Part shown: positions 22,938 to 37,150 of the stretch, piece by piece
Layout: each line of letters starts with the position of its first letter
Numbering within the stretch: position 1 is the first letter of the stretch
Assembly (NCBI RefSeq): GCF_013004105.1
Contig: NZ_CP053085.1
Coordinates: forward strand, 4,526,001-4,590,000
DNA from: Gemmatimonas groenlandica
Lineage (GTDB): Bacteria; Gemmatimonadota; Gemmatimonadetes; Gemmatimonadales; Gemmatimonadaceae
Length of the DNA stretch: 64,000 bases
Reading direction: 5' to 3'
The notes under the pieces: model-generated
The model's input: the letters and a program-made list of their open reading frames with translations, nothing else
Told to the model about the DNA's origin: nothing
Database searches by the model: none
Translations under genes and position numbers: made by a program

Positions 22938-22973
22938 AACGCACGCAAACGGCGCCACCGCGCCGCTCTACGG
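22932..22973. terminator. Possible bidirectional terminator hairpin
   Basis: CCGTAGA pairs with TCTACGG around an inner CGGCG/CGCCG stem, between two convergent genes and overlapping both stop regions. There is no T tract on either side, so it may only be a structured junction. Confidence 0.35.
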
Positions 22974-25900
22974 CCGCCGCTTCGACCCCGCCAGCACGCG
23001 GTAGTACTCCTCGACCAGCGCGCGATATTCCGCCGGTGCGGCGGCACGTGCGCCCGCCGCCGGCCGACCATCGGCGCCCAGTCCCACCGAGCGATACAAC
23101 GCGAACTCGAAGTTCTTGAGGCGCTCGAGCATCGCGGTCTGCAGTTGCTCGAGTCCCTTCGGGTCACCGAACGCACGGCTGTTCTCGAGTTGGCGCAGCC
23201 CTTCGATGGCGCGATCGAGTTCGCGCGTGTCCACGCCCTGGGCCGCCGCCTCGCGGCGGAGCCCTTCGGCGTTCTCACGACGCAACCGGAATTCGCGCGC
23301 GAACTGTTCCGGCGTGCCCGCCGGCATCATGCCGCCGTCGTTGCCGTTCGGCGACGACTGCCCGGAAGGCATGCCGCCATTGGGCGTGCCACCGGCCCGC
23401 GGCGCGCCGTTTGAATTGCCGCCGCGACCGCCGTTGGCCTGTTGGCCGCCTTGCTGGCCCTGACCCTGTCCTTGGCCCTGCCCCTGCTGCTGGCCTTGGC
23501 CCTGTCCCTGCTGACCCTGCCCCTGCTGTTGACCCTGTCCTTGCCCCTGCTGGCCCTGCTGCCCCTGCTGGCCCTGCTGGCCACTCTGCTGGCCTTGCTT
23601 CCCCGGTTGGCCCTGCTGCCCTTGCTGGCCGCTTTGCTGCCCCTGTGCGCCCTGCTGGCCCCCTTGCTGGCCTTGTTTGTCGGCCACGCGGTCCCGCAGT
23701 GACTCCAAACCCTCCACGAGCGCCCGCGTGCGCTCCAGCGTGCGTTCCTGCGTCCGCGCCGCCGACTCGCCCGACATCGCGCCCGTGGCCGCCCGCAGAC
23801 GCTCCGCCACGTCCTTCAGGTTCTCGCCGATCTGCCCTTCGAACTGCGACGCGTATTCCGCCGAGCCGCCGCGAATGACCTGCTTGCTGAAGTCGATCTT
23901 GTCGGCCACCCGCGTGTCGCGAATCGTTTCCGCCGCTTCGCCCAGCTTGCCCGCTGCCTTGGGCTGATCGCGCCGTGCCTCACGCGCCAACCGATCGGCG
24001 TCGGCTTCCAGTTTGCGCACGTCGTTGCCAAGCGCGTCCTTCTGCTCGCCCAACTTCCGCTGCTGTTCGTTGCGCGTGTTCGGCGCCGCACCCGCCATCG
24101 ACTTCACGCCCTCAGCGATCTCCTGCTGACGCGCTTCCAGATCCCGCGCGCGCTCGGCCAACTGCTGCACGCCACGATTGAGTTCGTTGGATCGCGTGCC
24201 CTCGAGATTGCGCGCCGCCCGGTTCAACTCTTCCAACGCCGCGCTGCCCTGCGCCGCCGATCCGCTCGACGCGCGACGCATCGCGTCAGCCGCCTGCTGC
24301 AGTCGCTGCGCCGCGTTGGCCAGTTCGGGGTTGTTCTGCTCGCGCGACAAGCGCTCCAATCTGCGTGCCTCTTCTTCCGCCTGACGCGCCAACTCTCGCT
24401 GCGCGCCGCTGTTGGCCGGCTGTCCCTGCTGGCCTTGCTGTCCACCCTGCTGGCCGCCTTGCTGTCCGCGGCCACTGCTCGATGCGGCACCGCCACTGCT
24501 GCCCGACGCGCCGCCGCTCTGCTGCTGCCCCAGCCGCTGGCGCATGGCCTCAGCCTGACGCTGCATGCGCTCGTTCTCCTGCTGCTGACGCTGCGCGAGT
24601 TGCCGCAACTTCTCCAGCGTTTCGTCGACGGCCTGCTGCGCACTCTGCTGCGATTGCGACTGCTGCTGCACGGCCTCGTACTGATTGCGCAGCTTGTCGT
24701 TCTCGAGCTCGAACAGGTCAGCCAGGTCTTCGGCCTTCTGACCGCCACCACCACCACCACCGCCGCCTCCCCCACCACCGCCCATCTGTACCTGCACGTC
24801 GCGGTACAATGCTTCGGCGCGCTGCAGATGCTGCAGCGCCTTCTGCTCCAGTGGCAACGCGTCCGTGCCGCGTCCACGGCCCAGCTGTTCTTCGGCCAGC
24901 TTCATCGATGCCGCCGCCGCTTCGGTCTCCACGCGGATCTTGGCAAACATCGTATCACCTGCCGCCAGGCCGCGCTCTTTCAAACTGGTCGCCAGCTTCG
25001 TCACCTCTTCGCGTAGTCGTCCTTCGGCAATCGTCAGCGTGGTGATGTTCTCGCGACGCTTCTTGTCGACGGTGCTGCTGCTGTCACGCAGCCAGTTGAA
25101 GGTGCCGGCTACGACTTCCTTCTGCCGCGCCACGAAGCCTTCGGGCGATTCGCCCTGCGGACCGCCACCGCCGCCGCCGCCACCACCCTGCTGTTCGGCC
25201 TGACGATAGTCCTTCGAGAACGGACGCACTTCGAGGAAGTACACATCGCTGCTGCCGGTGTGGCCCGACCCATCCTTCGCCACGGCGTGATACGCCACCA
25301 AGTCGCCCGGCACCAGCGACATCTCCTCCAGGAACAGCGTGTGCGCGGCGCGAGCATCCCGCGGCCGGCGCGTCGTGCTGTCCTGCATCACGATGCGCTT
25401 CTCGGCGCCACCGTTCACGCGATAGCGCAGCTCCAGCGCGACCACACCCAGGTCATCGCTGGCCTGCACAGCCACCGTGACTTCATCGGTGTTCGAGGCC
25501 TTCGTATCGCGTCCCGGCTCCTCGATCGTGACACGCGGCCCGCGGTCAGGAATCGCATCGATCACGTACTCCACCGAACCGGCCACCGTGGTGCCGTCCG
25601 TGGTAATCAGATCCACGTGATAAAATCCGCTCTTCGCCACCTTGAAACGACCGGCTACGGCGCTGTCGCCTTCGATGGTCATCGGCGCCGTGGTGCCATC
25701 GTCGAAACGCAGTACGCCGCTCGCGACTTTCCGCGTCACGTTGGCGTGCACCACCACCGTCGTCCCCACGATCGCGGCCACGTCACCGCCGTCTTCCACA
25801 TGCTCCGCCGGCATGCCGCTGTACGCCGGGAAGTTGAGATCGAGCGACACGTTCGACACCGCCGGCAGGTCGTTCACCGTGAGCTTATACGTCGGCGACC

Positions 25901-26711
25901 GTACGTCGGCCGACTCGACGTAGTATTCGGTGGGCTTCGTGATATCGAACAGCCGCGAGCGGAAGCGCGACGAATCGGCTTCGGGGCTCATCGGGAGGCG
26001 CTGCCACTCACTCGCCGAATCGCTGCGGAACACCAGCTCTGCGCCGTCCGCAGCGAAGCCAATCAGCGCCGCATGCACTTCAATGGCGCCGCCACGAGGC
26101 ACCGCCACGTTGCCCGGCTCGATGTTGAGCGCACGCACCGGCACCGCCGCTTCGGCCGTACCAAAGGGCACGAACAACAGCTTCGCGCCTTCACGCAAAC
26201 GCGCCGGACCGGCCACGAACATCAGTGCCGCCACCGCGGCCACACCACCCAGCATCTGCCCGGCGCGCACCATGCGCGGACGCTCCAGCGCCGCACGCTG
26301 CTGCAGCGGCGCAATCGCCGCGCTCGCTCGTGACATCAACCGCGCCGACAACGCACCCGACTGACGCTCACTTTCCGGCACATGCGCTTCCTGCACCGCC
26401 GTGATCAGCGCCTGCTTGAGTTGCGGGGCACGCTCTTCCACGTACAGCGCAAATCGTTCGTCACTGGCGCGCCGCGTGAGTGGCAGCACCAGTCCGCGGA
26501 TGAACGCTGCCGCGATCAGCGCGTAGCCGATCACGCGCGCGATGATCGGGGCTCGTCCGTCACCACTGAACACGGTGAGTACGAGCATGGTGGCCAGCAC
26601 GGCCAGCAGCACCGATGCCCCGATCCACACGAGCGACTCGAGGAGAATGCGCTGGCGCCACTGGCGGCGGAGCGCGCCGAGTGTGATGAGGAGCTGACGG
26701 TCGGGACTCAT
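22968..26711 (-). CDS. DUF4175-like giant membrane protein with Q/G-rich tail
   Basis: A 1247-aa protein. Three hydrophobic helices lie at about 18-40, 48-70 and 155-175. Two or three Ig-like beta domains follow (to about 560), then glycine runs near residues 510 and 642-656 and long coiled coils (ETLEKLRQLAQRQQQENERM). A Gln/Gly tract near residues 1010-1087 is built from GQQGQ and GQGQ units. The C-terminal 130 residues are helical again (EQFAREFRLRRENAEGLRRE). The layout fits the DUF4175 family, found beside BatA genes, of unknown function. It is the last gene of the eight-gene operon and overlaps the BatA/VWA gene by four bases. I start at 26711 rather than the longer frame to 26843. Confidence 0.82.
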   Translation of the reverse strand: MSPDRQLLITLGALRRQWRQRILLESLVWIGASVLLAVLATMLVLTVFSGDGRAPIIARVIGYALIAAAFIRGLVLPLTRRASDERFALYVEERAPQLKQALITAVQEAHVPESERQSGALSARLMSRASAAIAPLQQRAALERPRMVRAGQMLGGVAAVAALMFVAGPARLREGAKLLFVPFGTAEAAVPVRALNIEPGNVAVPRGGAIEVHAALIGFAADGAELVFRSDSASEWQRLPMSPEADSSRFRSRLFDITKPTEYYVESADVRSPTYKLTVNDLPAVSNVSLDLNFPAYSGMPAEHVEDGGDVAAIVGTTVVVHANVTRKVASGVLRFDDGTTAPMTIEGDSAVAGRFKVAKSGFYHVDLITTDGTTVAGSVEYVIDAIPDRGPRVTIEEPGRDTKASNTDEVTVAVQASDDLGVVALELRYRVNGGAEKRIVMQDSTTRRPRDARAAHTLFLEEMSLVPGDLVAYHAVAKDGSGHTGSSDVYFLEVRPFSKDYRQAEQQGGGGGGGGGPQGESPEGFVARQKEVVAGTFNWLRDSSSTVDKKRRENITTLTIAEGRLREEVTKLATSLKERGLAAGDTMFAKIRVETEAAAASMKLAEEQLGRGRGTDALPLEQKALQHLQRAEALYRDVQVQMGGGGGGGGGGGGGGQKAEDLADLFELENDKLRNQYEAVQQQSQSQQSAQQAVDETLEKLRQLAQRQQQENERMQRQAEAMRQRLGQQQSGGASGSSGGAASSSGRGQQGGQQGGQQGQQGQPANSGAQRELARQAEEEARRLERLSREQNNPELANAAQRLQQAADAMRRASSGSAAQGSAALEELNRAARNLEGTRSNELNRGVQQLAERARDLEARQQEIAEGVKSMAGAAPNTRNEQQRKLGEQKDALGNDVRKLEADADRLAREARRDQPKAAGKLGEAAETIRDTRVADKIDFSKQVIRGGSAEYASQFEGQIGENLKDVAERLRAATGAMSGESAARTQERTLERTRALVEGLESLRDRVADKQGQQGGQQGAQGQQSGQQGQQGQPGKQGQQSGQQGQQGQQGQQGQGQGQQQGQGQQGQGQGQQQGQGQGQGQGQQGGQQANGGRGGNSNGAPRAGGTPNGGMPSGQSSPNGNDGGMMPAGTPEQFAREFRLRRENAEGLRREAAAQGVDTRELDRAIEGLRQLENSRAFGDPKGLEQLQTAMLERLKNFEFALYRSVGLGADGRPAAGARAAAPAEYRALVEEYYRVLAGSKRRP

Positions 26712-28789
26712 GTGGGGCTCCGGTCGGAAGCGGACACGGGAGGAACGGGACGGACACGTCGGGCCACGGCACGCCATCCGCGCGTGGCCATGATGGTTTC
26801 GACGACCAGCACCAGCGCGACAATGATCAACAGTACCCGCCACGGATTCTGACGGCGCTCCAGCTCGGCCGTAGTCGGCGGTGCGTTCGACGCCATCGTG
26901 CCGGGCTCGGCGTCTCGCACGCCCAGCAACAGCTCGGTGGTGTCCATGGGAGTGAGCTCGGATTCACTGGCCGGCGCATTGGCCGCCACGCGACCCACGG
27001 CGGCCCCGGTCGCACTGACGGCAAACGCTTCGTACAGCCCGGCATCGGCCAGCGGTACCGCCGTGCCCAGTGAATCGGCCCGCGGGCGCAGCAATGTGCC
27101 ATCGGGCGCGCGCACCACCGGATCGTTCACCGACGGCGCCAGCGACCAGCTCTCACTGGTAGCGCGCCACAACGGCACGGCATCACGCCCGGACGTGTGC
27201 AGCACGAGCTGTCGTACGAACGGCAGGAACGCCGGCTGCAGCGGGAAATCACTGCGCTGCGCATCGAGCGGCACGGCGAGCACGACCAGACGGCCTTCGC
27301 CGAGGCGCTGTTCGAGCACGGCGGGGAGTCCATCGTCGAAGCGCGCCAGCACATCCACCTGGCCGACAAGATCCACCCGCGGATATCGCAGAAAGCGCAC
27401 CGAACTCAACGCATCGGGGACTTCGCGGAACGGGGTGAACAGCGGATGCTCGATGCGCACATCGCGCAGCGTACCGCCGCGATCGGCCAACCGGTCGGAC
27501 AGTCCGCTCATGCGCACCGGCAGCAGCGGCAAGTTGTCGCCACGCTGGGTCGCGAGTCGCGACCCGGCGGCGATCACCACGCCGCCGCCCTTGGTGATGT
27601 ACTCCTGCAGCGCCGCCACCGATGACGCCGACGGCAGCATATCCCAGAAGACGATCAGGCTCGTGCGGGCCAGCGCCTCGCGGCTCACGGGCGCCGAAGC
27701 CAACCGATCGATCTGAATGGCAGGAGCGGCGCCGATGGCGAGTGCGCGCTCCATGAACAGCGCTTCCCCGGCCGCCCCTTCCGACGGCGACACCAGCGCC
27801 ACGCGCACGGCGTCGTCGCGCGGCACCACGGCGTGCAGCGTGTCATCGGCCACCAACGCATCGGCCTCAAGCGACACCAGCAACGCGACCGCGTCATCGG
27901 GCGCCGGCACCGGCGCAAACGTGACCACGGTTTCGCCGTCGGGCTGTAGCGACACATCACTGCTGGCCGCGTCACGGCCATTTACCGTAAGACGCGCCTT
28001 CACCATGCGCGCCGCCGGCAGCTCGTGCGACTGCACGCGCGCCTTCACCGCCAGCAGCGACCGCGTGCCATCCAACACCCGCCGCGCCTCGACGACCCGC
28101 ACGGCACTGTTGGCGCGCACCGCCGCACCCACAGGAATGCTGCGCAACTTCACCCCGGCTGGCAGATCGATGCCGGCAATGCCGGCCGCACCGGCTCGCT
28201 GCAGGTCGGAAATCACGATGATCTCTGCCGCCGCAAATGGCGCATCGAGCAGCATCTGGCGCGCCGTGCGTAACGCCGGTGCCAGTCGCGTGCCGCGCGA
28301 CATCGGCTTGAGCGTGGAGATCGCGGCGATCGCCTGCGTCTTGTCGTCGCTCAGGCGCTGCAACACTTCGGAGGCATCGTCGTACGCCACCACACCCACG
28401 CGATCGCCGGCGCCGAGTGCGTTCACCACGGCCCGTGCGGAATCGAGCGCCCGTGGCCACACACCCTGGTAGCCCATGCTGAGCGAGCGATCGATCACCA
28501 CCACGACCGCCTTGCGACGCGTGTCGCCGCCGGTGGCGGTACGGTCGGTGAGGACGGGGCGCGCGAAGGCGAACACCAGCGCCGCCACCGCCAGCGCACG
28601 CAACAGCAGCAACGGCCAGTCGGTGATGCGCTGACGTTGCGACGTGCGGATAGGCAGCTGCTCCAGGAACATCAGCGACGGGAACCGGTACGGCCGGTCC
28701 TTGTCGCGATGCCGCAAATGCATCAGCAGCGGAATCGCCAGTGCGGCGAGTCCGGCCAGGAATGCAGGAACGAGAAATCCGATGCCCAT
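26708..28789 (-). CDS. BatA-type VWA membrane protein
   Basis: A 693-aa protein. The N-terminal 75 residues are a classic aerotolerance (BatA) domain: helix FLVPAFLAGLAALAIPLLMHL, then YRFPSLMFLEQLP and a second helix LLLLRALAVAALVFAFARPVL. A VWA domain follows with an intact MIDAS motif (VVVIDRSLSMG, DxSxS). Residues 300-620 are strand-rich with a glutamine-amidotransferase-like segment (ALQEYITKGGGVVIAAG). A C-terminal helix (VLLIIVALVLVVETIM) anchors the end. Bat proteins work with MoxR ATPases in envelope stress tolerance in Bacteroides; the exact activity is unresolved. Third partner of the adjoining MoxR and DUF58 genes. Confidence 0.88.
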   Translation of the reverse strand: MGIGFLVPAFLAGLAALAIPLLMHLRHRDKDRPYRFPSLMFLEQLPIRTSQRQRITDWPLLLLRALAVAALVFAFARPVLTDRTATGGDTRRKAVVVVIDRSLSMGYQGVWPRALDSARAVVNALGAGDRVGVVAYDDASEVLQRLSDDKTQAIAAISTLKPMSRGTRLAPALRTARQMLLDAPFAAAEIIVISDLQRAGAAGIAGIDLPAGVKLRSIPVGAAVRANSAVRVVEARRVLDGTRSLLAVKARVQSHELPAARMVKARLTVNGRDAASSDVSLQPDGETVVTFAPVPAPDDAVALLVSLEADALVADDTLHAVVPRDDAVRVALVSPSEGAAGEALFMERALAIGAAPAIQIDRLASAPVSREALARTSLIVFWDMLPSASSVAALQEYITKGGGVVIAAGSRLATQRGDNLPLLPVRMSGLSDRLADRGGTLRDVRIEHPLFTPFREVPDALSSVRFLRYPRVDLVGQVDVLARFDDGLPAVLEQRLGEGRLVVLAVPLDAQRSDFPLQPAFLPFVRQLVLHTSGRDAVPLWRATSESWSLAPSVNDPVVRAPDGTLLRPRADSLGTAVPLADAGLYEAFAVSATGAAVGRVAANAPASESELTPMDTTELLLGVRDAEPGTMASNAPPTTAELERRQNPWRVLLIIVALVLVVETIMATRGWRAVARRVRPVPPVSASDRSPT

Positions 28790-28815: not shown

Positions 28816-29715
28816 TCAGCGTACCCGACTGCGGGCGAGCCGCGCGTCGAGGTAGGCATGGAGGGCACGGTCGAGAGGTTCGCTCGTGTCGAGACGCACG
28901 TAGTCAGCACCGGCGCTGGTGAAGCGCTCCTGCAACGCCGCGTGGTGCGCCGTAATCAACGTGTTGTACTTGTCGCGCAGCTCGCCGGGACGCAGCGGTA
29001 GCAGCGCGCCACTCTCGGCGTCTTCAAACGTGGCCGGCATATCGCCCGGTAACTGCTTCTCCGCCGGATCGACCAGGTGAAACACGATCACATCGTGCCC
29101 GCCCATGCGCAGCGCGGCCACCGCGCGTCCGAGCGCTTCCGGCTGCTCGTAGCAGTCGGTCACCAGCACCACGATGCCCGTGCGCGTGGTGAGATGCCCG
29201 ATGCGGCTGATGGAGTGCACCAGCCGGCTCGGCCCCGCCGCCTTGGCACGCGCCAGCGTATGCAACAGCAGCTGCAGATGACGCACCGAAGGCGGCACGA
29301 CATCCACCAGCTCTTCCTTGAACGTGGCCAGTCCGATGCGATCACCTTGCGACTTCGACAACCACGCCAGCGATGCAACCAGAAAGCGCGCGTAGTCGAA
29401 CTTGGTAACCGCCCCGCTGCCGAAGTCCATGCTGCCCGACGCATCGAGCGCGAAGATCACCCCGGCGTTGGTGTCGGCGTCGTACTCCTTGATGTAGAAC
29501 CGGTCAGTACGGCCGTACACGCGCCAATCGATGCGACGCAGATCGTCGCCGGGCTGGTACGAGCGATGTTCGGCGAAATCGAGCGACGAACCTTTGCGCA
29601 ACGACCGGTGCTGACCATGCATGAAGCCGTCCACGACCGTGCGCGCCAGGAGCGCGAGGTCGGAGATACGCGCCAGCATGGCGGGATCGAGAAAGGACGC
29701 GGGAGCGGTGGCCAC
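28816..29715 (-). CDS. DUF58 protein with VWA fold
   Basis: A 299-aa protein with the diagnostic DUF58 signature: RSYQPGDDLRRIDWRVYGR followed by DRFYIKEY, then a VWA MIDAS motif (FALDASGSMDFG). I use the GTG at 29715, which gives the family-typical N-terminus VATAPASFLDPAMLARIS; the frame is open to an ATG at 29751 inside the MoxR gene. DUF58 proteins are the usual VWA partner of MoxR AAA+ ATPases, which act as chaperones that remodel or metallate VWA targets. Seven bases separate it from the MoxR gene. Confidence 0.9.
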   Translation of the reverse strand: MATAPASFLDPAMLARISDLALLARTVVDGFMHGQHRSLRKGSSLDFAEHRSYQPGDDLRRIDWRVYGRTDRFYIKEYDADTNAGVIFALDASGSMDFGSGAVTKFDYARFLVASLAWLSKSQGDRIGLATFKEELVDVVPPSVRHLQLLLHTLARAKAAGPSRLVHSISRIGHLTTRTGIVVLVTDCYEQPEALGRAVAALRMGGHDVIVFHLVDPAEKQLPGDMPATFEDAESGALLPLRPGELRDKYNTLITAHHAALQERFTSAGADYVRLDTSEPLDRALHAYLDARLARSRVR

Positions 29716-29722
29716 GAATCGC

Positions 29723-30757
29723 TCAGAGCGACGAGCGTGGAAGCGGTACACTCTCGAGCAGACGCCCGATGAGCGAATCGGTGGTCACCTTCTCCGACTG
29801 CGCCGTGAAGTTCACCAGCACACGGTGTCGCAGCACCGGACGCGCGAGCGCCCGCACATCTTCGAAACTGGCGCTGGCCCGGCCCTGCAGTAGCGCCCTC
29901 GCCTTGGCACCCAACACCAGCGCCTGCGCCGCGCGTACCGAGGCGCCGTACGACACGAACTGCTTCACGTAGTCGGGCGCGCCTTCGCCCGGGCGCGTGG
30001 TGCGCACCAGCTTCACGGCGTACCGCGTCACGGCATCGGCGATCGGCAAGCGACGCACCACGCGCTGATAGGCCAGGATCTCTTCCTTCGACACCACCGA
30101 CTGCACCGCTTCCGGCGGCAGCGAGGTGGTCGACTTCACCACGGCCACTTCGTCCTCTTCCGGCAGGTAATCCAGCATCACTTCCAGCATGAAACGATCG
30201 AGCTGCGCTTCCGGCAGCGGATAGGTGCCCTCGAGTTCGATCGGGTTCTGCGTGGCGAACACGAAGAACGGCTTGTCGAGCTCGTAGGTGCGTCCCTGCA
30301 CGGTCACACGACGCTCCTGCATGGCTTCCAGCAGCGCGGCCTGCGTTTTCGGTGGCGTTCGGTTGATCTCGTCGGCCAGCAGCACGTTGGCGAACACCGG
30401 GCCGGGCATGAAGGCAAGTCGACGCTGGCCGGTTGCCGGGTCGTCCTGAATCACATCCGTGCCCGTGACATCGCTGGGCATGAGGTCGGGCGTGAACTGG
30501 ATGCGCGAGAACTTGAGGTCGAGCGCACGCGCGAGTGTAGAGATCAGTAGCGTCTTGGCGAGACCGGGGACACCGACCAGGAGACAGTTGCCGCCGGCGA
30601 AGAGCGCGATCAGCGCTTGCTCCACCACGACGTCCTGACCGACGATGACTTTGCGAAGTTCGCTCGCGATGCGTTGACCGGCGCCCTGCAGGCGGTCGGC
30701 AAGGGCGCCGTCGTCGAGACGGTCGAGTTCAGACGTGGATGGGGCCGGAGCGGTCAC
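29723..30757 (-). CDS. MoxR-family AAA+ ATPase
   Basis: A 344-aa cytoplasmic ATPase. It has Walker A GVPGLAKT, the MoxR signature RIQFTPDLMPSDVTGTD, Walker B VLLADEINRTPPKTQAALLE, sensor 1 FFVFATQNPIE, and YPLPEAQLDRFM with the arginine finger region. The C-terminal lid follows (VSYGASVRAAQALVLGAKA). MoxR proteins are thought to act as chaperones for VWA proteins; both immediate downstream genes encode VWA proteins. Fifth gene in the operon, 15 bases after the DUF4159 gene. Confidence 0.95.
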   Translation of the reverse strand: MTAPAPSTSELDRLDDGALADRLQGAGQRIASELRKVIVGQDVVVEQALIALFAGGNCLLVGVPGLAKTLLISTLARALDLKFSRIQFTPDLMPSDVTGTDVIQDDPATGQRRLAFMPGPVFANVLLADEINRTPPKTQAALLEAMQERRVTVQGRTYELDKPFFVFATQNPIELEGTYPLPEAQLDRFMLEVMLDYLPEEDEVAVVKSTTSLPPEAVQSVVSKEEILAYQRVVRRLPIADAVTRYAVKLVRTTRPGEGAPDYVKQFVSYGASVRAAQALVLGAKARALLQGRASASFEDVRALARPVLRHRVLVNFTAQSEKVTTDSLIGRLLESVPLPRSSL

Positions 30758-30772: not shown

Positions 30773-31552
30773 CTAGCGGGTCAACGCGTAGATGATGTAG
30801 TTCACGCCGAGCTTGTACGCTTCGTTCGACATGTCGAGCGGGAACATCCCTGTGTCAGAGAACTCCCAGTACTCGGACAGGTCGTTGTTGTAATTCGCGA
30901 TCGCCAACAAGCGCTTCTTCGGATCGTTGTCCTCGAACACGCCGTAGAACACCGACTTGTAGCCGCGGTAGATCGGATGCTCGTAGTCGAGCGTCTTGAT
31001 GCGGTAGAACGAGTCGAAGATCGGATGCTTCAGGTCCATTTCGATGAGCCGGGCGTTCGGCAGCACCTTCTTCATGGCGCTCTCGAAGTTGATCCAGTGA
31101 TCGCCGACAAAGTCGTCAAAGATGATGAAGCCGCCCTTCGCCAGATAATTGCGCAGTCCCAGCGCTTCAGCGTCGTTGGGACGCCAGAAGCCCGGTTCGG
31201 CCATGTAGGCCACCGGGTACTTGCCAAGCTGCGGGTCGTCGAGCGTGAGAATGTTGCTGGCGTCGATGCGCATGCGCGTGCTCGAGAGCTCGCCTACGAT
31301 CTTGGTGAAGTGCCGCTCGCCCCGTGGATAGTCGTGGCTCCACGGAATGTCACGGCCACCGCCCCGGAATCCGCCACCGCCAAACTCGGGCATCTGATAC
31401 TTCACGCGCACGAAGGTCTGCCGGCCGTCGTAGGGCACGTTGGGCAGGAACGCCGGCTGCTGACCGCGCCGCTGAGCCTGCGCGGCGTGCGACGGTACCA
31501 GTGAAGCCAGGAACAAGCCGCCCAACAGCACGGCGCGAGGGAGTGACATCAT
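30773..31552 (-). CDS. DUF4159 exported protein
   Basis: A 259-aa protein with a signal peptide (LLGGLFLASLVPSHAAQA). The mature part matches the DUF4159 pattern: a short glutamine-amidotransferase-like fold with YLAKGGFIIFDDF and AMKKVLPNARLIEMDLKHPI, where the family has a hydrophobic sheet followed by a loop carrying conserved His. It also has a Gly-rich stretch near residue 58 (GGGGFRGGGRD). Function of the family is not known, but the gene is repeatedly seen beside MoxR/DUF58 genes. Its start overlaps the previous stop by four bases. Confidence 0.82.
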   Translation of the reverse strand: MMSLPRAVLLGGLFLASLVPSHAAQAQRRGQQPAFLPNVPYDGRQTFVRVKYQMPEFGGGGFRGGGRDIPWSHDYPRGERHFTKIVGELSSTRMRIDASNILTLDDPQLGKYPVAYMAEPGFWRPNDAEALGLRNYLAKGGFIIFDDFVGDHWINFESAMKKVLPNARLIEMDLKHPIFDSFYRIKTLDYEHPIYRGYKSVFYGVFEDNDPKKRLLAIANYNNDLSEYWEFSDTGMFPLDMSNEAYKLGVNYIIYALTR

Positions 31553-33891
31553 TTGCCGCGCAGCTCCAGCAACAGGGCCTGTGCCTTCTCGAACGACGGG
31601 GCCTCTTCGAGTACCTGCAATAGCTCACGACGCGCGCCCGCGATGTCACCGGCATCGCGCAGCGCGCGGGCCAGCTCAAAGCGTGCATCGAGCACGTCGG
31701 TCGGCCCCATGGCGATGATGGCCCGACGCTCCAGCACAGCTCGTGCGCGATCGCCCTGTGCGGCACTCAGCGTGGCCATGCGCACGTGCACCGTGGGGTC
31801 GTACGGCCAGATCCAGTTCAGCCGGTCGAGCGCGCGAATGGCGCCGGCCTTGTCGCCGCGTGCCTCGCGCAGATCGGCCTCCATCATGTTCGCCTCCCAC
31901 GCCGTTTCGTTGCGGCTGGTGACCTGCTCAACCAACGAGAGCGCGCGCGCGGTGTCGTTGGCCGCCCGCGCCATCTCCGCCAGATACCAGGCCGGACCGT
32001 CATCGCCGCCGTACTCCGGGAACATCGCTCGCGCCTGCTCGAACAGCGCTCGAGCAGCTTCTCGATCGCTGCGCATTTTCGAGGCGGCTTCGCGCATGGT
32101 GGCCACGAACTTCCCACCACTGCTGTCGTTCGGTGTCGCCCCACGAACAGCCGCGATGGCCAGCGCGAACTTGCGCTGCGTGTACGCCTCGAACTCCGCA
32201 TCGATTTGCAGCGGCGTCTTGCCCAGCACCTTCTGGAACACACCGGGCGTATCCATGCCGTCGCGATAGGCCTTCAGCATGGCTGGCAGCGCCGCCGCAC
32301 CACGCGAGGCTTCCACCATTTCGCAGAACAACGACGCTTCGTAGTAGCTGAACTGCGTCTCTTCGGGGAAGCGCGGTCGCAAAAATCCGTCGCTGAGCTG
32401 ACTGATGGGACGCAGTTTGCTGTTCGCCATTGCGATCACGTACGACACCGTCGCGTCAGCGCCCCAACCGCGGCCCACACGCCGCTCCTCGAGCACCGAG
32501 AGACCTTCCGACAGCCATCGGGGCACCCGATGGTCCGACGCGCCCAGCGTAAACGCGTGAGTGAGCTCGTGCCACGCCGTGCTGCCCCAGTTGAACTGAC
32601 CCTTTTCGCGCCCATTGGGCGTGTCCATGGCCAGCAGGCTGCCGAAGCTCACACCCAGCGCGCCGAGTCCGGCCAATCCCACGGTCCGCACCGAGAAGTC
32701 GGCGTGATAGCGGTAGAACTCGAGCCGGATGGGCGTAGGCGGCTTGTAGCCGTACCGCACGGCCAGCGAGTCATAGGCCTGCTCCAGCAGCGGCACGATG
32801 TACAACGCCAGCAAGTCCGCTTCTTCCGCCGGCGCGACGACGCGAAAGCGTCCGTGGTCGATCGTACGGAACGCCTTCATCTTGTCGAGCAGGTCGAGTG
32901 TGTTCTTGTGCCACAGGTTGAACGGATCGAGCGCGAAGGCGCGCTCCAACGCGGCACGGCCGGCCTCCATCTGCCCGATGCGCAACTGATTCGTGCCCAG
33001 CACGCCATAGGCCGGCACGTAGAGCGAGTCGTAGCCCGTCGCGCGCTTGGCGAGCGCCACCGCTTCGGTATACCGCCGTTGCCGCACCGAAGCCTCGGCC
33101 AGCTCCGTGTAGAACTGCGCCGGCGCCGGCTGCAACGCGGTCACAGCCGCCAGAGCTTTACGAAACGTGGCGCTGTCGCCGTTCAGGAACGCCATCGAGC
33201 CCAGCACCGACCAACCGGCGCTCGACGTCGAGTCGGCATCGATGGCCCGTTGCGCGTACACGCGCGCCGAATCGTACGACTCGGCGTCACGATGCATCTT
33301 CGCCACGAAGGCCAGCGCATCGGCATAGCGCGGTTCGCTCGCGATGCTCAGGCGCGCCGTGGCCATCGGGTTGCCCTTGCCCTCGAATTCCTCCACCCGT
33401 GCCATCGCCAGCAACGCCTTTGCATCAGTGGGAGAGCGACGTAGGATGCCCTCGAAGGACAATCGCGCATCGGGCGCGTTGTACTTCTCGAGGAAGAGCT
33501 CACCGGCGCGCAACTGCGCGTCGACGTTGCTGGAGTCGGCCGCCGTGGCGCGATCGAACGCCGCCAGCGCCGAACGCACCGCCTGCGCGTTCCCGATACC
33601 GAGCAGCACGTAGGCGCGACCGGCCGAGAGATACTCGTCGCTGTTGCGCGCGCCGCCCTGTTCGTACGCGGCGGTGATGCGGCTCGCGCGCTGCGTGGCA
33701 TCACGGCGATCGCCGCGACGCGCCGAGGCTTCGGCAGCGGCGATCTCAGTGGCCCAGCGATCGGGGCCTGGCACTCGCGGGGGGAGCGGTGCTACGCGAG
33801 CCGTCGGCTGCGCGGCGGCGCGATCCTGCCCACACGCCACCATCGGCGCCAGCATGGAAGCGGCCGCCAGCATATACACGGACCGCTTCAC
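31549..33891 (-). CDS. Lipoprotein TPR protein with HExxH metallopeptidase domain
   Basis: A 780-aa protein with lipoprotein signal (LAAASMLAPMVAC20). Residues 40-330 and 600-780 are tetratricopeptide-like helices (AQLRAGELFLEKYNAPDARL). The middle carries an intact gluzincin site: WHELTHAF (His441, Glu442, His445) and the third ligand in WLSEGLSVLEE (Glu462), like the peptidase MA family. The enzyme probably faces the periplasm. Overlaps of four bases join it to the caspase-like gene before and the DUF4159 gene after. Peptidase activity is inferred from motif only. Confidence 0.85.
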   Translation of the reverse strand: MKRSVYMLAAASMLAPMVACGQDRAAAQPTARVAPLPPRVPGPDRWATEIAAAEASARRGDRRDATQRASRITAAYEQGGARNSDEYLSAGRAYVLLGIGNAQAVRSALAAFDRATAADSSNVDAQLRAGELFLEKYNAPDARLSFEGILRRSPTDAKALLAMARVEEFEGKGNPMATARLSIASEPRYADALAFVAKMHRDAESYDSARVYAQRAIDADSTSSAGWSVLGSMAFLNGDSATFRKALAAVTALQPAPAQFYTELAEASVRQRRYTEAVALAKRATGYDSLYVPAYGVLGTNQLRIGQMEAGRAALERAFALDPFNLWHKNTLDLLDKMKAFRTIDHGRFRVVAPAEEADLLALYIVPLLEQAYDSLAVRYGYKPPTPIRLEFYRYHADFSVRTVGLAGLGALGVSFGSLLAMDTPNGREKGQFNWGSTAWHELTHAFTLGASDHRVPRWLSEGLSVLEERRVGRGWGADATVSYVIAMANSKLRPISQLSDGFLRPRFPEETQFSYYEASLFCEMVEASRGAAALPAMLKAYRDGMDTPGVFQKVLGKTPLQIDAEFEAYTQRKFALAIAAVRGATPNDSSGGKFVATMREAASKMRSDREAARALFEQARAMFPEYGGDDGPAWYLAEMARAANDTARALSLVEQVTSRNETAWEANMMEADLREARGDKAGAIRALDRLNWIWPYDPTVHVRMATLSAAQGDRARAVLERRAIIAMGPTDVLDARFELARALRDAGDIAGARRELLQVLEEAPSFEKAQALLLELRGK

Positions 33892-34862
33892 TTGCCACCT
33901 CCCGCTGCACGGATTGCCTTGGTCTTCTCGGCCAACGCCAGTAACAGCCGCTCCAGTTCCGCGTCGTACGCGTCAGCCGTCATCGTGGCCTTCTTCGTGC
34001 GCAGCGACGCGACTTCCGACTCGAGGGCCTGGCGCTCGGCGATCAGTGCGGCGATGCGTGGATCGGCCGACGCCGCGGTCTTGCCGAAGGCCACACGTGA
34101 GGCCAGGAGGGAGTCGCTCACCAGCGCGTGCTCGGTCTGCATGCGGTTCGAGCTGGTGTACACCTTGCCCACTTCGGTGCGGGCGAAGCGGAACACTTCG
34201 AACACGGACAAGCGTCCGTCCTTGTCGGCATCGGCGGCGTCGAGGCCCAATCCGCCGGCGAAGTACTGCAGGAATACCGACTCGTTGCGCTCGTTCGACG
34301 TCTTGGTCGCTGTCACGACCACGCGATTCGGCGCCTTGAGTGCCGGCACGAAATCGCCGCTACCGGTGGCGGCATTCACGAACACCACCTGCTGCTTGGC
34401 AAAGCCACCCAACCACGACGCATACTCGGCCGCCGTGGCGTCAGGACCGGGCAGGTTCACCTTCGATTGCGCGCCTTCACCGCTGCCGTGGCCCATCAGC
34501 ATCACGAAGAGCACATCGCCGGGCTGCACTCGTGACGACAAGCGCAGGAAAGCCTGCGAAATATTCTCCCGCGTGGAGCGCCCCGACGACAGCGCGGTGC
34601 GTACGGAGTCTTCGGTGAGCACGATCAAACTGGAGTCGCTCACGCCCCAACGGTTCTTCGCGGCATCTCGCGCGGACTGCGCCGACGCTTCGAACGAGCG
34701 CTTGAACTGCGGTTCACCCGACAGGCCGATCACGAGCAGCACATGAGTGCGCTGCGCCTGCAGCGGCGCGGCCAGAAGCGCAGCAAGCGGCAGTGCTACG
34801 GCCATCGCGAGCGCCGCGTGTACCATGACTTTGCGAAGGCGATGCATCATGCCAGTTCTCAT
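33888..34862 (-). CDS. Caspase-fold protein lacking the catalytic cysteine
   Basis: A 324-aa exported protein. I start at the ATG at 34862, which overlaps the upstream stop by four bases (ATGA). A signal peptide precedes LQAQ. The core looks like a C13/caspase fold: a strand then LMGHGSGEG with the catalytic-type His125, and the next strand VVFVNAATGSGDF where the family has its Cys. There is no cysteine anywhere in the protein, so proteolysis by this fold is excluded. An EF-hand-like DADKDGRLSVFE loop sits at about 211-222. The last 60 residues form a coiled coil. Possibly a binding or scaffold protein for the neighbouring protease-like gene. Confidence 0.7.
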   Translation of the reverse strand: MRTGMMHRLRKVMVHAALAMAVALPLAALLAAPLQAQRTHVLLVIGLSGEPQFKRSFEASAQSARDAAKNRWGVSDSSLIVLTEDSVRTALSSGRSTRENISQAFLRLSSRVQPGDVLFVMLMGHGSGEGAQSKVNLPGPDATAAEYASWLGGFAKQQVVFVNAATGSGDFVPALKAPNRVVVTATKTSNERNESVFLQYFAGGLGLDAADADKDGRLSVFEVFRFARTEVGKVYTSSNRMQTEHALVSDSLLASRVAFGKTAASADPRIAALIAERQALESEVASLRTKKATMTADAYDAELERLLLALAEKTKAIRAAGGGK

Positions 34863-37150
34863 GCCAGTCCTCTCCATCTCCGGTATCCCCACTCCGCGCC
34901 AAGCAGCAGCGCCACCAACAGGAATACCGCAGGCATGTCCCACAGGTCCTTCGCTTCGCGTACCGTCACGCCGGCTTCGGTGAACACGGCGTCTTCCGCC
35001 AGCTGCCCGGCATCGGCCAGCGGGTAGTAGCGACCACCGGTCTCTTCGGCGATGCGGCGCAGCAGCGAGGCACGCAGCTCAGCCTGCGCTACATCGGCGC
35101 CGCGCTCGTCCACCAGTAGCGAACTGGTGGCCGTCTGCACGGAATCGCGACCGCGCGTGGCCACGGCATCGATCACGTAGCGGCCGGTGTCCGTGGGCGT
35201 GAAGCGGGCGGTGTAGGTGCCGTCCTCGCGTAGCGTCCACTCCAGCGGCACCGTCTGTGCGCTGCCGGTCGGCGACGTCACGGTCACGGCGACCGTCGCG
35301 TCATTCACGTCGGTGAAGAACGGCGTGCTCACGCGGGCGCGCAACGACACCGGTTCACCCGGTGCCACGCGCGACGGTGAGGCCATGATTTCGAATGGCG
35401 CCGGGGCTTCTTCCACTATCCAACGCACGAGCTGACGCCACAGCGTCTGATGCGTGACGTCTTCGATCGGAATCGACGTGTCCATCTTCCACAGCCAGCT
35501 GTCCTGCACGCCGAACACCGCACTCATGCCGCGCCCGTACCGTTGCCAGGCCAGAATCGGCACATCGCTGCGGCCACCCTCGGCCGTGCCGGCCAATAAC
35601 ATGGTGGCACCCGCGCGCAGGGCGCCGAGGCGATTCACCGTGGTCAGTGCCGGCAGCGAATCCCAGCGCGAGCGGGACGACGCCAGTGTGGCGCGTAGCT
35701 GCAACGCCGCGTGCACTTCACCGGCGCGCGTGGGGCGCACCATGACCGGTGTGGCCGGACCGTCCACATTGATGCTGCCGGCGGAAATCGTAATTGGCAG
35801 CACGTCGGCCAGCGGCGTGCCGGCGTAGCCACCTTCCGACAGCGACGCACGACCACCGAGCACCATCAGACCACCACCGCGCAGGCTCACGAAGTCGGCG
35901 AGCATGCGCAGTTGCTCGGTGGTGAAGAACGACGCCTCGATGCTGCCCAGGATGATCGCGCGATAGCCGAACAGCTCTTCGCGGCTGGTGGGGAAGCCGC
36001 CCAACAGATCAAGACTGTCGCGCACACCGAGACGCAGGAACTTGCGTTCAGCGCTGCGCATGAGACCGACCACCTGCACGGCGCTGTCGTTCGCGACCGC
36101 GCGGCGCAGGAACGCGAACTCAGGACGCGGCTCGCCTTCGAGATACAAGATGCGATCGGGCCCGGCACGCACTTCAATGCTCGTCTGCCACTCGTTGTTC
36201 TCCGTCACGATCTCCGTGGGCAGCGCCTTGGCGCGCACGGCAATGCGATGCACCCCCGGATCGAGCGGCGGAATGCGGAAGCGCACGGTGGTGAGATCAC
36301 CCTTCTCGCCCACGCGCGCGGCCTCCGTGGCGACCACGCGACCGTCGGCTTCGACCGTGATCGGCACCGGATCACGACCGGCGCCACGAATACGCACGTC
36401 GGCTTCGACCACACTCGAGGCGCCGGCTAGTGTACGACGAGGCGCCTGCACGCGTTCGATCGCGACGTCACGCTCGAACCGCTCGGTGCCCACGCCCACC
36501 GTGAATACCGGCACACGACGCGCGCGCAGCGCCAGGAGCGCGTCGTCGAGCGAACCACTGCCGTTGTCGGCGCCATCGGACACGATCACCACGCCGGCCA
36601 GCGGCATGCCGTTCAAGTCTTCACGCACATCGTTCAACGCCTGCGCGAGATCGGAGCGCGTGCCGTTCGACTTGAGCGCAGCGGCGCCGGCAATCGGCGA
36701 GGCATCGGCGGCAAAGCGAAAGCGACGGATCGCGAACTTCTCGGCCAGCTGCTTCGACAGTGCGCCGGTGTCGGCGAGGGTGCGCTGCAACGCGGCGGTG
36801 CGCGTGCTGTCGCCCACATCGCGAATGCGCATACTGCGCGAATCATCCATGAGGACGGCAAGCACGTTGCGCTGCGGCACCGCTGATGCGATGACGAGGC
36901 CCGGGCGCAACAGGCAGCCGATCACCAACAACACGGCCGCCGCGCGCAACGTGGCGAGTATCGCGCGATCCGCAGGACGCAAGGTGCGCACACGCGCATA
37001 CGCTACGATTACCACCAGCAACACGATCGCCGCGGCGGCGATCACGAGCATCACGGGCACGACTGGTGCCATTACCAGATCACCCCGCGCAAAGACACGC
37101 GGAGGATACTTGAAGAGCAGGGTAGTGATGGATTCGAACCAGTTTCCCAC
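34859..37150 (-). CDS. Large VWA membrane protein with glutamine-amidotransferase-like domain
   Basis: A 763-aa protein from a GTG at 37150, first gene of the eight-gene operon. Two N-terminal helices lie at about 30-50 and 65-85. The VWA domain has MIDAS residues DDSRS (VLMDDSRSMRI) and VVIVSDGADNGSG. Next comes an Ig-like/CARDB-type region (VTENNEWQTSIEVRAGPD), then a class I glutamine-amidotransferase-like segment (MLADFVSLRGGGLMVLGG) without the catalytic Cys, a further beta domain, and a C-terminal helix (AVFLLVALLLGAEWGYRRW). The layout resembles the VWA proteins found next to BatA genes. Start has no clear ribosome site. Confidence 0.82.
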   Translation of the reverse strand: MGNWFESITTLLFKYPPRVFARGDLVMAPVVPVMLVIAAAAIVLLVVIVAYARVRTLRPADRAILATLRAAAVLLVIGCLLRPGLVIASAVPQRNVLAVLMDDSRSMRIRDVGDSTRTAALQRTLADTGALSKQLAEKFAIRRFRFAADASPIAGAAALKSNGTRSDLAQALNDVREDLNGMPLAGVVIVSDGADNGSGSLDDALLALRARRVPVFTVGVGTERFERDVAIERVQAPRRTLAGASSVVEADVRIRGAGRDPVPITVEADGRVVATEAARVGEKGDLTTVRFRIPPLDPGVHRIAVRAKALPTEIVTENNEWQTSIEVRAGPDRILYLEGEPRPEFAFLRRAVANDSAVQVVGLMRSAERKFLRLGVRDSLDLLGGFPTSREELFGYRAIILGSIEASFFTTEQLRMLADFVSLRGGGLMVLGGRASLSEGGYAGTPLADVLPITISAGSINVDGPATPVMVRPTRAGEVHAALQLRATLASSRSRWDSLPALTTVNRLGALRAGATMLLAGTAEGGRSDVPILAWQRYGRGMSAVFGVQDSWLWKMDTSIPIEDVTHQTLWRQLVRWIVEEAPAPFEIMASPSRVAPGEPVSLRARVSTPFFTDVNDATVAVTVTSPTGSAQTVPLEWTLREDGTYTARFTPTDTGRYVIDAVATRGRDSVQTATSSLLVDERGADVAQAELRASLLRRIAEETGGRYYPLADAGQLAEDAVFTEAGVTVREAKDLWDMPAVFLLVALLLGAEWGYRRWRGLA

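Follow-up and report, generated by a model that had tools for sequence, protein, structure and literature searches.

A Predicted Legumain-Fold Protein Family of Gemmatimonadota That Lacks the Catalytic Cysteine and Is Co-Inherited with a Membrane VWA Protein and a Metalloprotease

Gene content of the locus

The window (the whole 64,000-nucleotide stretch of Gemmatimonas groenlandica DNA analyzed here, genome positions 4526001–4590000) carries a run of minus-strand genes with a 324-aa protein as our main finding: a pseudo-C13 protein with a predicted legumain fold (33888–34862, start at 34862). It is preceded by a gene for a membrane protein with VWA, GATase1-like and Ig-like domains (34859–37150) and followed, in order, by genes for a gluzincin with TPR repeats on both sides (HELTH...SEG; 31549–33891), a DUF4159 protein (30773–31552), a MoxR-type AAA_3 ATPase (29723–30757), a DUF58 protein (28816–29751), a BatA-type VWA membrane protein (26708–28789) and a large DUF4175-like protein (22968–26843), which closes the same-strand run examined; the final four were assigned with Pfam. 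The first three junctions are 4-bp start/stop overlaps: the VWA/GATase-like stop with the pseudo-C13 start (ATGA), the pseudo-C13 stop with the gluzincin start (GTGA), and the gluzincin stop with the DUF4159 start (ATGA). Candidate promoters and terminators were no more numerous than in shuffled sequence. As a check for an anti-phage role, PADLOC matched its "caspase" profile to the pseudo-C13 protein (3.1e-8) and found no match on the six neighbors scanned.

The first-pass annotation had described this protein as an exported, caspase/C13-like chain without cysteine, and its coordinates, strand, start, length and lack of any cysteine over 324 aa were all confirmed from the sequence. Residues 1–36 (34755–34862, minus strand) read as a Sec-type signal sequence, basic and then hydrophobic and ending LQA/Q, from which we infer export and a periplasmic location. 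The other elements described earlier are also in place: His125, equivalent to the catalytic histidine, within MGHGSGEG (codon 34488–34490, minus strand); NAATGSGD at residues 163–170; an EF-hand-like 12-residue loop, DADKDGRLSVFE, at residues 211–222 (34197–34232, minus strand); and the adjoining HExxH gene. The tail had been called a coiled coil; AlphaFold2 predicts a two-helix hairpin at residues 268–319 (33906–34061, minus strand; helices at model residues 232–253 and 260–283).

Several features of the neighboring genes deserve mention. The gluzincin was modeled with pLDDT 86 as a metalloprotease-like core flanked by two TPR arrays, the core being placed by reading the model's secondary structure together with the Pfam range. 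In the VWA membrane protein, the GATase1-like domain reads GGGLMVLGGRASLSEGGYAG and lacks cysteine at what we take to be the nucleophile position; relatives with the same GATase motif likewise have no cysteine in that stretch, and this domain is possibly a second cysteine-less enzyme-like domain in the operon. At L038, L043, L083, L085, L086, L087, L088, L089, L090, L092 and L093 the VWA/GATase-like gene is immediately preceded by a second DUF4159 gene or a fragment of one; no such upstream copy was seen in the window.

Predicted fold, catalytic site and calcium-type loop

The AlphaFold2 model, computed from 25 aligned family members, has a pLDDT of 88 and a pTM of 0.84. Foldseek puts an asparaginyl endopeptidase at the top (E 4e-9), and the model's best VIA-align match is legumain (4nol; Z 21.9, rmsd 2.6, 204 of 288 residues aligned), tied with metacaspase-4 (6w8r; Z 21.4, rmsd 2.9, 210 aligned). 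These matches span model residues 1–228, so the C-terminal hairpin is barely tested by the comparison. The model thus has the predicted alpha/beta caspase-hemoglobinase fold of clan CD, to which caspases and legumain belong. The three methods agree on the caspase/C13 fold that had been proposed from sequence, and a different fold was rejected on the strength of the model and the legumain match. In profile searches the protein scores 13.6 bits against the C13 profile PF01650, below the gathering cut-off of 22.8, while two of the four other family members scanned pass it (L072 with 26.7 and L073 with 25.8 bits). Peptidase_C14 (PF00656) gave no match to the protein at E<=1 and none in its genome at E<=0.01, and matched one of 64 family members (E 0.013).

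No gap interrupts the motif when the family is aligned with cysteine-intact C13 peptidases (xxACYSGGFIP versus NAATGSGDFVP), and the catalytic cysteine position, previously placed only within NAATGSGD, therefore falls on Thr166 (codon 34365–34367, minus strand). We surveyed this site in 158 distinct family sequences, the window's included (at least 230 aligned residues, E<=1e-40, shorter and duplicate rows dropped). It is serine in 121, threonine in 32, proline in four and aspartate in one, and cysteine in none, which answers the earlier question whether orthologues lack the residue throughout: every one examined does. His125 is histidine in 157 sequences and glutamine in one, and Ser168 and Arg180 are invariant. 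Dereplication at 97% (144 sequences) leaves the picture unchanged: serine 112, threonine 27, proline four, aspartate one, and histidine 143. With the catalytic histidine in 157/158 and the catalytic cysteine in 0/158, we file the family as a pseudo-relative rather than a C13 peptidase. The orthologues were also examined for signs that the site is part of another enzyme's active site, and this did not overturn the assignment.

Since no family sequence has cysteine at this site, its loss is ancient and family-wide; the best explanation is loss in the family's ancestor, with fold and histidine retained. The E<=1e-40 limit could in principle hide a cysteine-bearing sister, but a phylum search at E<=1e-4 added only two genomes outside the family. 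These weak matches (G216 and G306) were considered as cysteine-bearing family members and rejected: they hold cysteine-intact caspase-type proteins. The one in G306, a genome of the same class, combines a PPC domain with a caspase domain that is intact (DACYSGG; L117), and a Pfam scan confirmed its C14 identity. In the phylum of a gammaproteobacterial relative, 38 of 398 genomes gave matches, of which the relative itself (G317) is a true member and the others are weak; all 29 of the weak matches examined as loci (L121–L149) have a C-x-S-G motif, and the five scanned with Pfam (L121, L126, L138, L140, L141) all match C13. Profile searches with PF00656 and PF01650 found no cysteine-bearing paralogue in the window's own genome, the PF01650 search being insensitive to remote forms because the pseudo-C13 protein itself stayed below threshold.

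The first-pass annotation had also drawn attention to the absence of cysteine from the whole chain. That absence is real and unremarkable: cysteine makes up only 0.36% of residues in 11 neighboring genes, which gives P ~0.35 for none in 288 residues, and we rejected it as a noteworthy feature in itself. What matters is that the catalytic site is never cysteine.

The loop is a family trait and not a special addition to the window protein, as had been suggested. Written DxDxDxxxSxxE, it follows the EF-hand 12-residue pattern across the 158 sequences, with D1, D/N3, D/N5 and E12 in all 158 and S/T9 in 156, and it probably binds calcium; the Pfam EF-hand_5 score of the window protein is below the cut-off. 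The pattern is absent from the C13 matches examined and present in two other caspase-type matches (L149 and L145). A second acidic loop, LDDNGDGxGS, is found in the cysteine-intact relatives L141 and L142 and in the majority of family members that come from outside the window's genus. It is absent from the genus, where it was therefore probably lost.

Distribution and co-inheritance

In a search of relatives, 36 of 61 genomes matched, counting the window's own. In a sample of the phylum Gemmatimonadota, 150 of 298 genomes matched; removing the weak G216 and G306 leaves 148 carriers, about half. Within the order of the gammaproteobacterial genome, two of 17 genomes have the protein. One plasmid-borne relative was found, in Gemmatirosa, and none was confirmed on viral contigs. 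At ~747142–748049 of contig 3 (1106233 bases) of genome G112, the match falls into two overlapping pieces and the gene may be frameshifted.

Gene neighborhood is strongly conserved. Across 33 loci longer than 5 kb, counts that are not independent because several loci are close relatives, the VWA/GATase-like gene lies directly upstream in 32, the remaining locus ending at a contig edge, and the gluzincin gene lies directly downstream in 30. All 30 neighboring gluzincins of at least 600 aa keep HExxH and the downstream glutamate (two cut ones were dropped), as do 3/3 further ones. Adjacency to the gluzincin is not absolute: the genes lie ~20 kb (L087, genome G070), ~1.5 kb (L088, G104) and ~4.7 kb (L089, G190) apart in three class-level genomes. 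Where the gluzincin gene lies elsewhere, the VWA/GATase-like gene stays next to the pseudo-C13 gene, to which it is linked at least as tightly as the gluzincin gene is.

Co-occurrence was compared in 40 genomes, 20 carriers picked for spread and the 20 listed of the 148 non-carriers; these 20 non-carriers all belong to the window's own taxonomic family, which makes the absence side phylogenetically narrow. The VWA/GATase-like protein was present in 20/20 carriers versus 0/20 non-carriers and the gluzincin (E<=1e-200) in 20/20 versus 1/20, which bears out the earlier suggestion of an association with an intact HExxH protein. In the lone exception, G011, the gluzincin gene comes within 29 bases of a contig end, and the assembly may therefore simply lack the pseudo-C13 gene. 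DUF4159 was rejected as a co-occurrence marker: it has too many copies per genome.

Possible roles and comparison with known systems

Because the cysteine is always replaced and the gene is co-inherited with those of a membrane protein and an intact metalloprotease, the probable role of the pseudo-C13 protein is binding or regulation and not cleavage. Our data lean, by a modest degree, toward an exported legumain-like pseudopeptidase, a subunit without catalytic activity in a membrane MoxR/VWA complex with the TPR metalloprotease. A C13-type clan CD domain would have lost its cysteine ancestrally while keeping its fold and histidine and carrying the conserved calcium-type loop. The VWA/GATase-like membrane protein encoded by the preceding gene would anchor it, the old substrate groove might bind peptides or partner proteins, and bound clients could be positioned or restrained for the metalloprotease. 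To us the conserved histidine and Ser/Thr pair looks like a site kept for binding or structure. The earlier proposal is supported in part, for its fold, missing cysteine and HExxH association; a role in regulating the gluzincin or presenting substrate to it is conjectural.

The pattern of constraint points partly away from such a subunit. On a quick tree the Thr166 site needs nine changes and His125 one, against 32 for the median column, and Ser/Thr occupies the site in 153/158 sequences, a stronger constraint than would be required at a plain dead site. Alternatively, Ser/Thr and His125 could replace the Cys-His pair in an active hydrolase or transferase on the clan CD fold, a possibility that we regard as unlikely; besides these counts it draws on the fewest-changes ranking among 283 columns, where the histidine is 9th and the Thr166 site 43rd. 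Its fuller form, a Ser/Thr-His clan CD enzyme, perhaps calcium-dependent, inside the membrane MoxR/VWA complex, with the Pro and Asp members as secondary losses, seems a shade more doubtful still. Against activity stand the five Pro or Asp members of the 158, together with L233, a member outside the survey that comes from another genome in the gammaproteobacterial order and has proline at the site. By parsimony, Ser/Thr was lost in at least four changes, and members without the His-Ser/Thr pair have intact operons: all five with an altered pair (L038, L094, L016, L107, L099) adjoin a gluzincin with HExxH. L016 has a Pro or Asp site and has lost the histidine too; its dN/dS is ~0.18–0.20 against the three nearest relatives tested, inside the range of seven control pairs (~0.05–0.25), values that are only rough because synonymous sites are near saturation. 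There is also precedent in the serine-substituted trypanosome metacaspase 4, called a pseudopeptidase in PMC6657590 and PMC4850289.

The protein could instead serve the VWA/GATase-like membrane protein alone, as its structural scaffold, with the gluzincin tied in by the shared operon rather than by the pseudo-C13 protein. The tighter adjacency of the VWA gene (32/33 loci, versus 30/33 for the gluzincin) suits this account, whereas co-inheritance of the gluzincin and the 4-bp overlap that joins its gene to the pseudo-C13 gene in the window do not, and we give it a minor but real chance. It is improbable that the histidine and Ser/Thr make up a sensor site, for a ligand or linked to calcium, instead of a peptide groove, with, for example, ion state gating the VWA complex: the acidic positions of the loop are almost invariant and a number of clan CD peptidases depend on calcium, according to PMC4357240, but nothing places the loop near the His/Ser-Thr site. 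A peptidase decayed recently in this genome has virtually no standing; apart from the missing cysteine nothing favors it, related copies have dN/dS well under 1, and the absence of cysteine at the site in all 158 sequences across the phylum led us to reject it.

With its two co-inherited partners the protein makes up a defined three-gene module, one that allows direct tests of what a dead legumain-like domain does, and the serine, threonine, proline and aspartate found at the nucleophile position offer a natural experiment on whether the His-Ser/Thr pair still matters. An active protein would represent a serine/threonine version of the caspase-legumain fold.

Bat or MoxR-VWA operons usually have DUF58 and TPR proteins as partners. 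The operon resembles such systems, of the Bacteroides aerotolerance type, in its MoxR ATPase and BatA-type VWA protein (PMC3557215) and differs in adding the VWA/GATase-like protein, the pseudo-C13 protein, the TPR gluzincin and DUF4159; in that paper, bat deletions in Leptospira caused no growth or morphology defect. By a term search, PMC7159879, which deals with conflict systems that contain MoxR and caspases, does not mention Gemmatimonadota, legumain, C13, DUF4159 or DUF58. The open-licence literature searched yielded no published description of the family; a putative Gemmatimonadetes metacaspase without the Cys-His pair, noted in PMC3501461, may or may not belong to it.

With C13 peptidases (PF01650, legumain; bacterial L121, L126, L140) the family shares the fold, the histidine position, the Ser-Gly of the CxSG-type motif and the strand "TA[AT]" after it, but it replaces the catalytic cysteine in every member and has the conserved EF-hand-like loop and helical hairpin. 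Pseudo-orthocaspases have the clan CD fold. These C14 proteins of cyanobacteria and Alphaproteobacteria also have Cys to Ser as their commonest change and are thought inactive, but their histidine is commonly tyrosine too (Tyr-Ser), whereas the present family keeps it, is C13-type in sequence and has a different gene neighborhood; they are reported absent in phototrophic Gemmatimonadetes (PMC6426788). Trypanosoma brucei metacaspase 4 resembles the family in having serine for the catalytic cysteine and is described as inactive yet functional (PMC6657590), but it is a eukaryotic C14 metacaspase without a MoxR/VWA operon. From these two cases, Cys-to-Ser clan CD pseudopeptidases are already known. 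Caspase-fold pseudoenzymes in the literature cited are variants beside active relatives; the pseudo-C13 protein represents a phylum-wide family that is cysteine-less at the catalytic site throughout, with its histidine preserved and close ties to both an intact metalloprotease and a membrane VWA protein.
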